Virus record (IMG/VR): IMGVR_UViG_3300028883_000155
Span: 1 to 20,445 of that record
Length of the DNA: 20,445 nt
Source of the DNA: a virus
Direction: 5' to 3' (one strand)
Below the pieces are notes generated by a model that ran no database searches, was not told the DNA's origin, and saw only the letters and a program-made list of their open reading frames with translations. The translations under genes were made by a program, and so were the position numbers. How positions within the stretch are numbered: the stretch's first letter is position 1; every line of letters starts with the position of its first letter. Positions 1-20,205 of this stretch are shown in pieces.

Positions 1-241
1 TGGTATCGACAAGGCCAGTAATGTTTTTCACGGCATGGATTACCGTTGCGTGGTTGAGCATGAAATAAAACCCTATCCATGTATAGCTCATGTTTGTATA
101 TCTCCTGAGTAGGTACATGGCTATTTGGCGAGGTTCAACGATATACCGCTGCCTTGTCTTTTCCTGTAACGCCCCCACGTCTATACCGTAGGTCTCGGCT
201 ACCATTCCCAGAATAGTGTTAATTTTTTGTATGTCAGTCAT
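1..241 (-). CDS. DnaA domain IV-like DNA-binding protein (3' end outside window)
   Basis: This open frame starts at the ATG at 241 and runs off the left edge, giving 80 residues. The part from about residue 30 (RQRYIVEPRQIAMYLLRRYT, then IG, then NHATVIHAV) matches the pattern of DnaA domain IV. That domain is a helix-turn-helix that binds DnaA boxes, and its signature contains the D/NHATV...A core. No AAA+ ATPase region precedes it, so this looks like a stand-alone phage protein carrying only the DNA-binding domain. Its start overlaps the stop of the upstream zinc-ribbon gene (ATGA), and a GGAGG ribosome-binding site lies inside that gene's last codons. Its neighbours (SSB-like, YopX) suggest a replication or regulatory role. 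The domain assignment is fairly secure; the function is inferred. Confidence 0.8.
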   Translation of the reverse strand, partial: MTDIQKINTILGMVAETYGIDVGALQEKTRQRYIVEPRQIAMYLLRRYTNMSYTWIGFYFMLNHATVIHAVKNITGLVDT

Positions 242-7500: not shown

Positions 7501-10332
7501 TCAATCGTGTAAATATGTCATTTTAACCGCTGAATTTTTGAAAGTAGCTTGATCTGTACCATCAACATTCTTCGTCTGGATCACGATTTCATCTCCCGCC
7601 GTAAGTTCACCGTGAGCTATAACTACAACCTGCACAACGTCCGTATTAGCTCCTTCCGTCCCCGCTGCTGTTGGTATCCCTGCCGTCTGTGTAACATTAT
7701 AAAACCTGAAAACATATTGCTTGTTTGGTGAGCCTAATAAGCAGGTCTGAAACTGAATGTCGTAATGACCTGTCTTGGTAACGGTTAAGGTATCATTGCT
7801 TTCTGTAAATCCATGTAATTCGCTCCAGTCCCATAGTGACTGCCCGGCGTTGGTCATGTGATACCATGTGTTTGCAACCGAATAGGAAAATACAGAAGTA
7901 CTATCCCCAAACCAACCGAATAAATGATATATACTGTCTACCGTTACATATCCAGCTATATCTGCGTCCCCAGCCACAACTAATTCGACAGCAGGTGAAG
8001 CCAGCGAAGAGCCTATATTTAATTTGCTCACAATGTTCACGTAATTCGCATCAAAGTCGCCGTATATCAAAGGCGTTGCGGTGTTGGAGTTGTCGATGTA
8101 TAGCTTATTGCTTCCGGTTTCATTGTAGCCAGCCTGGTAGCCAAGAAATACATTATAATCACCGGAGGCGCAACTGAATCCAGATTGCGTGCCAAAAAAG
8201 GTGTTTTGACTTCCCCCATTCAATGAAGTGCCAGAGAAATACCCGACAATGGTATTACCACTATTATTCCCAGCATCACCCGCTTGGAAGCCTATGATAG
8301 TATTGTACTGCCCCGTCGATGTTCCTTCGCCTGCCCCCGTTCCGATATACACGCTTCTCCTGCCACTTGTCAATAACTGCCCTGCCTGCGTACCTATCGC
8401 TATATTATCAGCCCCCGTAACGGCTGCATTGCCTCCGGCTTCTTCACCGATGAAAACATTATCCGTTCCGGTTGTGAAACCGTTACCAGCCTTGTACCCT
8501 ACAAAGACATTGCTTGCTCCGCTGCTCGAACCGTCAACCCCCACACCTGCATACGAACCTATAATGGTATTATACGCCCCTGTGGCATACATACCTGCAT
8601 TACGCCCTATACCTATTGAATTACTTTGGTTTGTCATTCCATATAAAGCATTACCACCTATTGCGATATTGTTTGTACCGGATGTAATTCCATTTAAGGC
8701 TAAATCTCCAATACCTGTTAGATATTCCCCTGTTGTGGTGAAGTTACCAGCATTGCCCATAAATATATTATCTTCACCGTTGTACTGATGAATTAATGGA
8801 TAGTCGTTTAAATAAATCACACCCGTATCTGATGCAGTTGTTTCAGGAAGAGATAAGGTATAGTCATCTTTTTCTGTATAGCCGTTAGGAATAAGTAAAT
8901 CGAATAGCTTTAACCCTGAAATATATACACCTTCATATCTTAAATGGTTCGTTGAAACTATCCCTAAAGAATTAGCAACATCGTACAACCCGAAACGGGC
9001 GAAGAAGTCATAATGCCCAACCGCCCTATCTTCTGCAACATCATTGATATATGTGCGCTGCTTAAATGCTGTTGTATCAGTTCCCTCTTGCGGTGATGTG
9101 ATGACTATATTGCTTTCTGTTGAATCCCTGACCGTCTGAATGCTTGCTATCAATGAATCCAATCCCAGCCTGTAACTGTCATCCACAGCAGCCGTATTTT
9201 CTAAAAAGTTGACAAATATAAGTGAAGGGTTCAGCGTGTCCAAAAGTTGCCAGACGGTTGAGTTCTGATTGTTCCAATCTGCCAATGTACTGCCTCCCCT
9301 GAATATCCTGTGAACCTCAACGGGATAGGTCTGTTTTCCGCTCACATATTCCTTCCACATCGAAACGCCGTAAAGCCTGACCGTCCCGCTGTTGGAATAG
9401 ATATAAAGTGTGTCTGTTGGCTCATAGTCTGCACCTGCATCTATCTCAACTGTCATCTTTCCGGCTGTCGCTCCGTCCGTGCTGATTGCCCCGCTTAAAT
9501 CACCATCATGGTTTACTTTCCATTTAAACTCCCCACCCCCTGAAATCTGCCTGTAATGGAATCGTAACCTATTGAAGTAGCCGTTTGTGATCCTGATAGC
9601 ACTATCAACATCGTTATCGGTATTCTCTGCATATTGCCCGTGCCAGCTCAATGTATCTGCATGGTCAGCCGTAAAAGTCCAACTGTTACCGACCAGCGTC
9701 CAGGGATGGTTAAGCGTTTCGGAGTAGGTTTCTTCCCTCATAGTCACATAGCCATGACCTGCATAGTCAAATTTCTCATCGAATAACTTTTTAACTCCAT
9801 TTGCAAACGGCTCGACCTCGCTATCACCGATAAATACTATACAGGCATTATCAACAGGTGTGTTGTCAAATAAATCGAACTTATTAGCGTTAATCAAATC
9901 CTTATACCAAACGGTCAGGTTGCCCATATATTCATCGTTGCGCTGTAATGATATGGTAGTGCTGTCGCGATATGCCGCTTCTGCAATAGTATCACCAATT
10001 ACAATAGGAGATGCCCACTCTACCTCGCCATTGGTTAATAGTGTGGCTATGCGTCCCACCTTTGTCGCCTCGTCAGGCAGCGGGTATAAGAAAAGGCTGT
10101 CGCCGTTCAGCACAACAGAGTCCGCATAGTTAGACAGCGAATACCTTACGTTCAATTTATTATCGTTAAGGTGGTTTAATATCGTGTTCAACTGCGCCGC
10201 TGTGATAGACTTCGTGGCGTTCGTCACGATATACAAATCTATCGTATCCGCCGTCAGCGCGTCCGTTATCTGCGCCTGCGTCGCAATTATACTTGTTAGT
10301 ATAATACCAAGTGTTATAATCAGTTTTTTCAT
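7501..10332 (-). CDS. Secreted multi-domain tail fibre/adhesin with SGNH-type esterase
   Basis: A 943-aa modular protein. Residues 1-20 form a signal peptide (MKKLIITLGIILTSIIATQA) with Gln at +1. Residues about 160-480 look like an SGNH/GDSL hydrolase: FIGDSE at 167-172 (nucleophile Ser171), RGGS at 345-348 (oxyanion Gly), FVNFLEN at 373-379 (block III) and SNH-like TNHL at 461-464 (His463). A beta-sandwich-like insert (about 205-330) separates the first two. Residues about 520-745 are roughly ten repeats of the N-x-x-IG-x-x-AG-x-x-x-TTG type, a YadA-head-like beta-roll. SNKLYIDNSNTATPLIYGDF (741-760) caps it. Residues about 800-943 resemble a C1q/TNF jelly roll. Likely role: trimeric receptor binding and deacetylation of surface glycans. 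The signal peptide is unexpected for a virion protein. Confidence 0.85.
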   Translation of the reverse strand: MKKLIITLGIILTSIIATQAQITDALTADTIDLYIVTNATKSITAAQLNTILNHLNDNKLNVRYSLSNYADSVVLNGDSLFLYPLPDEATKVGRIATLLTNGEVEWASPIVIGDTIAEAAYRDSTTISLQRNDEYMGNLTVWYKDLINANKFDLFDNTPVDNACIVFIGDSEVEPFANGVKKLFDEKFDYAGHGYVTMREETYSETLNHPWTLVGNSWTFTADHADTLSWHGQYAENTDNDVDSAIRITNGYFNRLRFHYRQISGGGEFKWKVNHDGDLSGAISTDGATAGKMTVEIDAGADYEPTDTLYIYSNSGTVRLYGVSMWKEYVSGKQTYPVEVHRIFRGGSTLADWNNQNSTVWQLLDTLNPSLIFVNFLENTAAVDDSYRLGLDSLIASIQTVRDSTESNIVITSPQEGTDTTAFKQRTYINDVAEDRAVGHYDFFARFGLYDVANSLGIVSTNHLRYEGVYISGLKLFDLLIPNGYTEKDDYTLSLPETTASDTGVIYLNDYPLIHQYNGEDNIFMGNAGNFTTTGEYLTGIGDLALNGITSGTNNIAIGGNALYGMTNQSNSIGIGRNAGMYATGAYNTIIGSYAGVGVDGSSSGASNVFVGYKAGNGFTTGTDNVFIGEEAGGNAAVTGADNIAIGTQAGQLLTSGRRSVYIGTGAGEGTSTGQYNTIIGFQAGDAGNNSGNTIVGYFSGTSLNGGSQNTFFGTQSGFSCASGDYNVFLGYQAGYNETGSNKLYIDNSNTATPLIYGDFDANYVNIVSKLNIGSSLASPAVELVVAGDADIAGYVTVDSIYHLFGWFGDSTSVFSYSVANTWYHMTNAGQSLWDWSELHGFTESNDTLTVTKTGHYDIQFQTCLLGSPNKQYVFRFYNVTQTAGIPTAAGTEGANTDVVQVVVIAHGELTAGDEIVIQTKNVDGTDQATFKNSAVKMTYLHD

Positions 10333-10337
10333 AATCG

Positions 10338-12401
10338 TTAAATAAAGAAGTCCTCACTAAAGTCATCATTAAATTCACCTGTGCCGCTCTCGTCCCATAT
10401 CTGCAACCATTCGCCATCGAAAGTACACGAGCGCATATTGTAACTAAGGCTCAAAGGGATATACCACCGCGAGTTGTAATCCTGCAAACAAGTATGGAAG
10501 TCTATCTTCGGTGTTTCCGCGTCGCTTGGCGAAGTGTCAATAATAGTACCTCTTAACTTGAATTGTGGCCGGCGGTATGTCACGTTCAGATCAGTGCGTA
10601 ATATGGATTCTATTAAACTGCTCGAAGGGTCTGCATCACCCTGGAAGCCGAAGTAATTAACTGCGTCGGGTGTGTCGTCAAACAATACACACCTATTCAC
10701 CAACTGATAATTACCCGTCCCGTCTACTTTCCTGTTGCCGGGATCAGGCGTGTCGCCAAACTTCACGTCGTACTTCGGGGGCTGTAATAAATTATTACTG
10801 TCTATTGTTTCTTCAATAGTACGTTCTGAACCCTCTTCGATGTTCCCATCATACCGGGTCTGCTGCATATTCTGAAAATACAACTTCATGCGGCGATAAC
10901 ATATACCGTCGTCCAGCGTCCCGGCGTTAGCTGATGTTGCACGGCCTTTATAAAGATATACCTGAAATTTAATGGATGTCTGCGATGTACTTTCACCGTG
11001 CGGTGCTTTTGGTATCTTTACAGTAAAACCGCCCCAGTCTTCCTGATACAGATAACCAATAAGGTTATAGCTCGTCGGCCCTACCTTCCATTCTCCAATA
11101 ACACCCTCATCGGTTAGTGTTTCATCTAACGTATATTGAGTGCCGCTGAAATTACCAATTATCTTTATAAAGAATTGGACACTATCATCATCCCAACCGG
11201 AATATTTGGCGAAAGTTTCAGATTCAAACTTCATAATTATATCGCCACCGTTCCATTGCGACATTAAATTACCCAAACTACCCACATAATCACTCATATC
11301 TATTTCATCAGAATAAATATAAGTATTGAAAGTCATCGGGCCTGTTATATATCCCTCTAACCGTAACGCCCTCCAATCCGTTTCATGGTTTACAGACATA
11401 CCACCATTAGCTGTCCAATGCCGAAGCATGCCGCCTGAAAAATCATCATCGGTAAATATACCTTCGTAATTTGACAGCGGCAATAGATTAACATCCTTGC
11501 CAAACTCCTGGAATATCTCAAGCCTTTTATACGCTGGTTGTACTTCAAGCGAAGCACCTCTTATAAACCGAATATCATAACCCCTGCCCTGGTGTGATGT
11601 TAAAGCAACCTCTTCGTTATTGGAGTTTATTACACTTGAGTAAGATCCGCTATCATCATAAAGCTCCAACCGAAAATCATCATACTTCTGGTCTAACCTT
11701 TCAATCCTCCACGCGTCGCCATTCTGGTATAACCTTGCATTGAAACTTGCACAAATCTCATTAAGTACATCGAAACAACTCCACCACTCCGCGTCTTCAT
11801 CCTTTAAAGCCCTGTAATCAATATAAAGGTTTTCAAATATCCTACTTGAAATAATATTGTCGTCGTATTGCTTCGCTACAATATTCACGGCTATTTCAAA
11901 GTCCATGTTATTATAGTTATAACCTATCTTTGATAAACAATGATGGACGTAATATATTAACGTCTGTTTGTAGTCTGCTTTAGCGAACCCCGGAGCTGTT
12001 GGCTTGACGTTCTTTAATTCTACCAACCCGTCGATACAATGAACGCTAATAGGATGGTTGTCGTCTATAAACTCTTCGGAGTAGTATTCGGGATTAATGA
12101 ACCCGGTAAATACTAAATTAACCCCTCGGTATATCTCAACCTCATAAGTCTTGCCCTGCGAGGTGAACAAATCAAGTAACTGTAAAGAAGAGGTGGCGAT
12201 GTAATTTATATACGCTTCCTTTGGCTTAATATGCGTAAACTTGTCATCGTCGTTACCCACCCACTTTATCACCACGGGCTCATCCAAAGCTAAACGTAGG
12301 GACGTTTCAGAACCCGTGTAACCATCTTTTTTAATATAGACTTTGCACAGGTTATTATTATCGTCGTAGAAACTACTTGTATATACTATTTCGTTAGCCA
12401 C
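10338..12401 (-). CDS. Distal tail / baseplate hub-like protein, 687 aa
   Basis: Lies directly after the tape measure (8-base overlap), the usual place of distal tail and hub proteins. The N-terminal 130 residues read as a Dit-like beta domain: YTSSFYDDNNNLCKVYIKKD, then VVIKWVGNDDDKFTHIKP, then VFTGFINPEYYSEEFID and IDGLVELKNVKPT. I associate this arrangement with tail proteins of Bacteroidetes phages. The middle is long and beta-rich, and the C-terminus (LQDYNSRWYIPLSLSYNMRS...TFDGEWLQIWDE) is aromatic. No lysozyme or peptidase motif was found. Role inferred: joining the tail tube to the fibre protein that follows five bases later. Confidence 0.78.
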   Translation of the reverse strand: MANEIVYTSSFYDDNNNLCKVYIKKDGYTGSETSLRLALDEPVVIKWVGNDDDKFTHIKPKEAYINYIATSSLQLLDLFTSQGKTYEVEIYRGVNLVFTGFINPEYYSEEFIDDNHPISVHCIDGLVELKNVKPTAPGFAKADYKQTLIYYVHHCLSKIGYNYNNMDFEIAVNIVAKQYDDNIISSRIFENLYIDYRALKDEDAEWWSCFDVLNEICASFNARLYQNGDAWRIERLDQKYDDFRLELYDDSGSYSSVINSNNEEVALTSHQGRGYDIRFIRGASLEVQPAYKRLEIFQEFGKDVNLLPLSNYEGIFTDDDFSGGMLRHWTANGGMSVNHETDWRALRLEGYITGPMTFNTYIYSDEIDMSDYVGSLGNLMSQWNGGDIIMKFESETFAKYSGWDDDSVQFFIKIIGNFSGTQYTLDETLTDEGVIGEWKVGPTSYNLIGYLYQEDWGGFTVKIPKAPHGESTSQTSIKFQVYLYKGRATSANAGTLDDGICYRRMKLYFQNMQQTRYDGNIEEGSERTIEETIDSNNLLQPPKYDVKFGDTPDPGNRKVDGTGNYQLVNRCVLFDDTPDAVNYFGFQGDADPSSSLIESILRTDLNVTYRRPQFKLRGTIIDTSPSDAETPKIDFHTCLQDYNSRWYIPLSLSYNMRSCTFDGEWLQIWDESGTGEFNDDFSEDFFI

Positions 12402-18678: not shown

Positions 18679-20205
18679 TTAGGTGTCCATTCTCCTGTAG
18701 TATTTCACAGGGCTGTAAGTGGTTGCGTTAGGTGCGATCAACTCGGAGTCCACCCTTTGCAGGGCAACGATACCTGTCCTTAACAACTCAGCATAACGCT
18801 CAGTCAAACGGATGAGCCTTGTCGGGCCTGCGTACCTGATAGCAAACTTTTTCAGGTCGCCATACAGGAAGTGCCGCGAATTAGCTGAAACGGTTGTATT
18901 GGCCGTCAACTCATTGGAAACGTAGTAAGGTTTTCCTAAGAAAGTATCCGGTGCGCCGTCCTTCATACTCGGCTGCCATAGCGGCTGGCCTGTGGTGGAT
19001 TTCAGTCCCATCACGTCAAACAGTTGGCTCTGGTGCATCAAAAATGAAGCATTCATCTGGTATGCCCAGTCTACGGTTGACATAAACTGGATAAGCCTGT
19101 CGTATGTAATGGGGCAGTCGCCTCCAAGAGTACCCTTTGCGGCTGCCAATGCAAGTCCCTGCGGTTTACTTGAACCGTCGGCTGTCATACAAGCCGTTGA
19201 GATAGCACGCCACAGACGTTCACCGAGTACATCACCGAGTACTTTACCTGAATCGAAGTCACCGTCTTCCAGGTCTTCATTGTCGATACTTACCAACTGT
19301 GAGCTGTAAGGATACGCAGTAAGGGTTTTGGCTGCCATTGTCACAGCATCGGAGCTGTCGCCGATGTCCGTTCCGGCTGCCTCGAGCGCTCCCGTGTACG
19401 ATGTATCATCACAATTTGTTACCGTAGCGGCTTTTTATCCACTACTTCTTATGGTTTCCCATAAGTTCGGCGTACATTTTCAACCAGCTTGGGTTGTCGG
19501 ACACTCTTGGCAGGGTTATCGCTTCCATTGTCGCCCACCTGCTACGCTCTACGCTACTGTTGGTGTCAGTTAGCACGGTATTAACTTGTCTTTCATGAGA
19601 TTTAGTCTTCACCGTATTTGCCCGATTTTTCATAATTAATTACTTAATTAAGCGGCTAATGATAGTTTAACCGTTGGCCAGTTCATCGTATTACCACGTG
19701 GTGTCCTAAACTCATTACAAGCCGATAACCACCCGCCGTAATATTTCTTGGCGCGCTCTACTTGCTGAACTACATCGGTAGTCTGCATATTTGAGAATGA
19801 AGTTGCATTACCTGGATTGGCACGAAGCTCGATAAATTCCTGGTTGCCATCAGCCCTTACACCTAAGATTTTACGCTCATCGGCATTCAAGGCGCTCATG
19901 CCCCTTTTAAACCATTTTTGAATAGCGGCGTTGTATTTGATTGTCCGCTCTTCAACGGTTTCGATAGTTTCGCCCTTGTCATTTTTGATAGGCTGGTTCA
20001 ACGTACCACGAATCTCGTTCACCTGCTCCAGCACGTCAATTTGTTTTTGGAGTGCCTGCATCTCGTCAGTCAACTCCTTGAAAGTTGTATGCTCCTCTTC
20101 GCTCATAAGCCGCTCCTCACCCTCGGCAACCTTTGTAAGTTGCTGGGCTTGATACCACAGCTCACGCTTGCGTTCATACAGATTTTGTATTTCTGATTTT
20201 GCCAT
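18679..20205 (-). CDS. Major capsid protein (HK97 fold), split by a group I intron
   Basis: The coding sequence is exon 1 at 20205-19670 and exon 2 at 19411-18679 (1269 bases, 422 residues); 19412-19669 is intron. Residues 1-70 are a charged coiled coil, the internal delta/scaffold domain. The region from about 140 on follows the HK97-fold pattern: VVQQVERAKKYYGGWL, then RTPRGNTMNWPTV, DDTSYTG, LTAYPYSSQLVSIDNEDLED, GSSKPQGLALAAAKG and FLGKPYYVSNEL. The intron splits the Val179 codon (GT|T), and joining yields PTVDDTSYTG, the conserved strand of the family. Unspliced, translation ends six codons into the intron (KLSLAA). A strong AAAGGAGGAG ribosome-binding site precedes the ATG. Capsid identity is firm; splicing is predicted from sequence. 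Confidence 0.92.
19412..19669 (-). ncRNA. ORF-less group I intron in the major capsid gene (258 nt)
   Basis: Numbering the intron from 19669, these elements can be paired. P1: exon ACGGU with GCCGC at 14-18, U.G at the splice site. P2: 19-34. P3: 45-50 with 168-173 (UCGGGC/GUCCGA). J3/4: AAAU. P4: 55-59 with 91-95 (ACGGU/ACCGU). P5: 63-66 with 84-87. P6: 96-103 with 111-117. P7: G121, bulged A122, 123-127 with 196-201 (GAGCGUA/UACGCC). P7.1: 128-132 with 156-160. P8: 174-178 with 185-189. P9: 205-211 with 216-222, closed by GAAA. P9.1: 225-231 with 240-246. The intron ends in G258. P10 pairs 6-13 with the first eight bases of exon 2. P7.1 suggests an IA-like subgroup. No homing endonuclease is encoded. 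Confidence 0.9.

Follow-up and report, generated by a model that had tools for sequence, protein, structure and literature searches.

Capsid-gene introns have already been described in phages, including phages of Bacteroidota. In the mycobacteriophage LittleE, an intron in the capsid gene, most likely of group I, was shown by RT-PCR and N-terminal sequencing (PMC3706429), and a capsid-gene intron of the lactococcal phage Tuc2009 is cited in the same paper. Group I introns interrupt the major capsid protein (MCP) gene of Bacteroidota phages from the Delta and Zeta crAss-like groups, and one such gene lies in five fragments (PMC7886860). Jug phages, with Bacteroides or Phocaeicola as predicted hosts, carry about 18.5 introns per genome, and in three genomes reads support the splicing of 37 of 76 predicted introns (PMC12363816). 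A recent database assigns over half of its viral group I introns to subtype IA2 (PMC11835236). Phage introns that are derivatives without an ORF are also known, from the lysin introns of S. thermophilus phages (Foley et al. 2000, as cited in PMC8541194).

The window analyzed here (20,445 nucleotides, positions 1 to 20,445 of IMG/VR virus record IMGVR_UViG_3300028883_000155) contains a 258-nt intron at 19669-19412 on the minus strand, inside the gene for the major capsid protein of a tailed phage. As in LittleE, an HK97-fold major capsid gene is interrupted; splicing before translation was demonstrated experimentally in LittleE, whereas here it is predicted. The LittleE intron differs in length (about 819 bp), in its endonuclease ORF and in belonging to a Mycobacterium phage. 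The Delta and Zeta crAss-like phages share an MCP gene interrupted by a group I intron, and theirs are phages of Bacteroidota. They differ in having a crAss-like MCP with up to four insertions (found via endonuclease domains) and in being another phage family. A sequence-only reading of the window had regarded a capsid-gene intron as unusual, which the precedents of LittleE and Tuc2009 (PMC3706429) and of the crAss-like phages (PMC7886860) contradict. It had also placed the intron in a Bacteroidota phage and taken this to be rare; the rarity does not hold (PMC7886860, PMC12363816), and the Bacteroidota assignment stands as likely only (the tail protein, 12 of 12 records, is discussed below). 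What is particular to the window copy is its compact form, a host gene that is new for its lineage among the relatives examined and a likely new host phylum.

The interrupted capsid gene

The element at 19412-19669 (-) was identified as a group I intron of IA type, without an ORF of recognizable function, by using the Rfam group I covariance model (RF00028) and covariation among 30 copies. RF00028, a search proposed in the sequence-only reading, gave a full-core match at 19679-19448 (model positions 1-253 of 253) with E-values of 6.7e-10 in a 501-nt stretch and 2.7e-8 in the whole window, though its 43.6 bits fall under the Rfam gathering score of 50 bits and a default search reports nothing. 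Routine annotation would therefore miss this intron. A model of our own (R1) scored 119.6 bits on 19520-19412, with the window copy itself among the R1 training sequences. No endonuclease, the mark of mobile (homing) introns when intron-encoded, was found inside the window copy, and its sole coding-strand ORF of at least 60 aa (63 aa, 19633-19442) had no Pfam or PHROG match. That the 258-nt element is a complete group I intron, which would have to be excised before the transcript can yield the capsid protein, is well supported; the sequence-only reading had recognized it as complete and ORF-less, with boundaries that are right to the base.

Exon 1 (19670-20205, -) covers codons 1-178 plus the initial two bases of codon 179, and exon 2 (18679-19411, -), which includes the stop codon, matches PF05065 (Phage_capsid, E 1.1e-27). 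Translation confirmed that the two capsid fragments lie in different frames, as previously read; unspliced, exon 1 runs through six intron codons and then meets a stop. The intron interrupts codon 179 (V179) in phase 2, at a site that lies inside the conserved PTVDDTS strand. Its removal is predicted to join ...CCAACGGT to TGATGATACA and to give a 422-aa protein that reads ...NWPTVDDTSYTG.... This spliced product, exon 1 included, matches the PHROG family phrog_10 (major head protein) over residues 3-404 (E 3.4e-36), a match along its length to an HK97-type major capsid protein. Intron-less capsid proteins of contig L001, where the junction reads MNWPTVDDTSNTG, and of Vibrio, Rhizobium and Labrenzia phages align with it without a gap at the junction (PTV/DDTS); a fifth homologue, from a Ruminococcus phage, is diverged there and has a one-residue gap. 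The six-sequence capsid alignment is highly divergent. Splicing would thus join the frames and restore the conserved strand as had been claimed, and the comparison with HK97-fold capsids that had been proposed as a check spans the junction.

Alternatively, the 258 nt could be bypassed or frameshifted across, or the two fragments could be separate, co-assembling proteins, given that each exon is open and that exon 2 has internal start codons. This is the least credible of the readings and has only a negligible probability: the exon-1 frame has several stops within the 258 nt, the split falls within a conserved strand and not at a domain border, and the element has the full anatomy of a ribozyme family that is known from many unrelated genes.

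Scans with the capsid protein gave one to four matches only, all distant and intron-less, and none in bacterial and archaeal genomes. A near-identical empty allele was not found, the MCP homologues being only about 25-33% identical. A pattern designed to detect this intron at the identical capsid position (the intron 3' end followed by GAYGAYAC) had no match in viral contigs, from which the window's own record was apparently excluded. Records that share the window's phosphoesterase (L074-L094) gave no capsid match, so close relatives are not comparable at the capsid gene.

Ribozyme fold, splice sites and covariation

Unconstrained folding of the RNA yielded P1-P6, P7.1, P8, P9 and P9.1 (z = -3.06, with 0 of 200 shuffles as low), in agreement with the P1-P9.1 fold of the sequence-only reading. 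The hallmarks listed in that reading are all present, namely the U.G pair of the 5' splice site, J3/4 AAA(U), a six-pair P7 with its bulged A, a P9 of 7 bp with a GAAA loop, P9.1 and the terminal G, and P7.1 and P10 are added to them here. All of the following elements are on the minus strand.

P1 (19653-19673, from sequence and fold) is a 7-bp helix of exon CGGU and intron UAA with intron UUAGCCG, in which U19670.G19656 marks the 5' splice site. Directly upstream of G19656 lies the P10 internal guide AUCAUUA (19657-19663), which can form 7 bp with the start of exon 2 (UGAUGAU, 19411-19405). The terminal (omega) G is at 19412, where the exon frame and P10 both put the 3' splice site; together with the U.G pair in P1 it gives the ends expected of a group I intron. 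P1, P10 and the terminal G define both splice sites, in agreement with the frame-keeping junction. An alternative 3' splice site at G19410 was rejected, as it gives an in-frame stop.

P3 pairs UCGGGCA (19619-19625) with UGUCCGA (19497-19503), and both strands show compensatory changes in relatives. P4-P5 (19575-19615; ACGGU...ACCGU around GACU...AGUU) comes from the fold and is the position of an extra ORF in many relatives. The P6-P6a hairpin (GCUAACUG / CAGUAGC, 19553-19574) and the P8 hairpin (CAACC / GGUUG, 19481-19496) are given by the fold and the covariation alignment, and P9 (19448-19465; 7 bp, CUUAUGG / CCAUAAG, with a GAAA loop) and the P9.1 hairpin (GUAGUGG / CCGCUAC, 19424-19445) by the covariation alignment. 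The two strands of P7, G-(bulged A)-GCGUA (19543-19549) and UACGCC (19469-19474), are invariant in 30 of 30 copies. With the P3 compensations, this gives a P3-P7 pseudoknot with a G-binding P7 (bulged A, G-C pair). An alternative P7 pairing (GGCGAC/GUACGCC) was ruled out, as the adjoining GGCGAC stretch is not conserved in the family. Between P7 and P3 lies an extra helix, P7.1 (GCAGG / CCUGC, 19510-19542), the hallmark of subgroup IA; the assignment is to IA without a split into IA1 and IA2, because P7.2, the IA2 helix, was not established.

An exact 21-nt catalytic core, GGTTGAAAATGTACGCC(A/G)AAC, was found in 66 other viral contigs. Covariation was assessed on an alignment of 30 distinct copies that starts at P4' and ends with the terminal G, using the structure of the window copy. 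Of the cells counted for this structure, 96.8% were paired, versus 80.2% in shuffles and 34-45% with the partner slid; deriving the structure from one aligned sequence favours it over slid versions, and the gap far exceeds that effect. Changes on both sides were seen in 20 of 34 pairs (160 cells, against a shuffle mean of 40), and none of 500 shuffles reached any of the five covariation measures. Covariation is strong in P6, P7.1, P9 and P9.1, with most of it carried by the last three; in P7.1 all five pairs have changed on both sides and 99.3% of cells are paired. P3 lies partly outside the 30-copy alignment, and its compensations were read by eye (UCGGGCA/UGUCCGA, UCGAUCA/UGAUCGA, UUGGGCA/UGCCCAA, UCAAGCA/UGUUUGA). 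P1 and P10 are beyond covariation testing because both are specific to the window copy.

These results bear on whether the element is a degenerate intron that no longer splices, leaving a capsid pseudogene or a defective phage genome. Such a reading would fit an intron that is known from sequence alone and scores under the Rfam cut-off. It is nevertheless very improbable, as all core elements are intact, P7 and other core positions match the invariant columns of the family, both exons are open, splicing restores an uninterrupted conserved protein and the neighbouring structural genes are intact.

Related introns and the phage host

By sequence, the nearest intron (76.7% identity over 218 nt) splits a tape-measure gene in phages of Staphylococcus type, and its exons are unrelated to those of the window copy. 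IA introns of Sextaecvirus-like Staphylococcus phages (MZ417341) and of 'Arcanobacterium phage TPWB06' (PQ358086) have 76-77% nucleotide identity to intron positions 41-258 and share P7, P7.1, P9, P9.1, the terminal G and the compact size, but differ in their tape-measure host gene, their unrelated exons and the Gram-positive hosts of their phages. PQ358086 differs very little from Staphylococcus Sextaecvirus phages in its intron and in the tape-measure gene around it; because of this near-identity, the host recorded for TPWB06 is possibly wrong, or else the phage could have a broad range. IA introns from phages of S. thermophilus (such as CHPC869, in terL) and from Staphylococcus phage ROSA, where the neck protein region is the site, are 85-87% identical over the core from P8/P7 to the 3' end and belong to the same lineage. 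They differ from the window copy in carrying an ORF upstream of P4' (a GIY-YIG endonuclease in CHPC869), where the window copy has none.

Across the lineage, the genes interrupted by relatives of this ribozyme encode terminase, portal, neck and tape-measure proteins and DNA polymerase, mostly in Gram-positive phages, and no capsid-gene copy was found among the relatives examined. Homing endonucleases are frequent in these relatives. In many of them the P4 strands are separated by an additional 700-1000 bases, and the ORFs tested there include GIY-YIG and LAGLIDADG endonucleases; the distance from P3 to the core is about 830-1200 nt in many relatives versus 143 nt in the window copy. An intron core pattern with a short P8 had no match in genome contigs, the pattern being narrow, so that absence is not implied.

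Several relatives have features of their own. In four contigs (L030, L043, L055 and L059) a reading frame starts directly after P7, endonuclease-VII-like in L030, so that ribozyme and coding sequence overlap. In a 29-kb contig (IMGVR_UViG_2836801230_000001) the core matches at 1388-1408 and 10987-11007, one in a tape-measure-like and the other in a terminase-like gene, which suggests spread within one genome. The P8 loop has the form GGTTGTCTTTTTTATTGGTT in L004, L006-L011, L021 and many others (e.g., L006 1086-1206) and not in the window copy; in these relatives it resembles a terminator of transcription, or else an alternative hairpin, lying within the catalytic core.

The phage is likely a phage of Bacteroidota, judging from a tail protein. 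This 687-aa protein matches Bacteroidota phages only (12 of 12 records), and the head proteins have their matches chiefly among phages of Proteobacteria and Firmicutes, with identities of about 25-33%. Since the tail protein and the head proteins point to different phage groups, a Bacteroidota host is likely and not proven. Elsewhere in the window, 2-241 (-) encodes a stand-alone DnaA C-terminal DNA-binding domain protein (PF08299, E 2.4e-23) that is cut by the contig end, and 7501-10332 (-), the customary location for a host-recognition protein, encodes a protein of 943 aa whose repeat region (residues 533-737) gives tail-spike-like and virion structural PHROG matches.

Origin and significance of the compact intron

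The locus is almost certainly a compact IA intron in a tailed-phage MCP gene, the splicing of which would yield a 422-aa HK97-fold protein, and which would be an endonuclease-less, horizontally gained and tolerated selfish passenger. In this mechanism the transcript would fold, and an external G bound at P7 would attack after U19670; the freed exon end would then attack after G19412, joining the exons into the message for the 422-aa HK97-fold capsid protein. The ribozyme lineage is common in phages, with relatives that carry GIY-YIG, LAGLIDADG or endonuclease-VII-like genes, and the window copy, lacking an endonuclease, is therefore most likely an endonuclease-less derivative, one that probably arrived in a new gene and phage group. 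It would have entered the capsid gene and a phage group new to the lineage horizontally, as a selfish passenger, and would be tolerated because of efficient splicing.

An intron that delays or tunes capsid production, e.g., through splicing coupled to translation or growth state, would suit a gene whose expression is normally the highest among the late genes. The T4 introns offer a precedent, their splicing being reported to depend on translation and growth state (the title of reference 68, as cited in PMC8541194). Such a role is unlikely, as nothing in the sequence demands it and the relatives sit in many gene types, as a selfish element would. For the tolerated passenger, a bolder history is conceivable and is offered tentatively: a lineage mainly of Gram-positive phages may have crossed to a Bacteroidota phage and settled at a new site within the MCP gene's conserved core, lacking its own endonuclease. 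If true, this would imply spread across phyla via a trans-acting endonuclease, via reverse splicing, or via insertion followed by endonuclease loss.

The window copy is a clean case of an intron without an endonuclease in the gene for the virion's most abundant protein, and poor splicing there would be expensive. Because this intron scores under the Rfam cut-off, the annotation of metagenomic phages is probably missing capsid genes split in this manner. The lineage has copies in at least six phage gene types and is paired with unrelated endonucleases, which makes it a good system in which to study how compact introns move.
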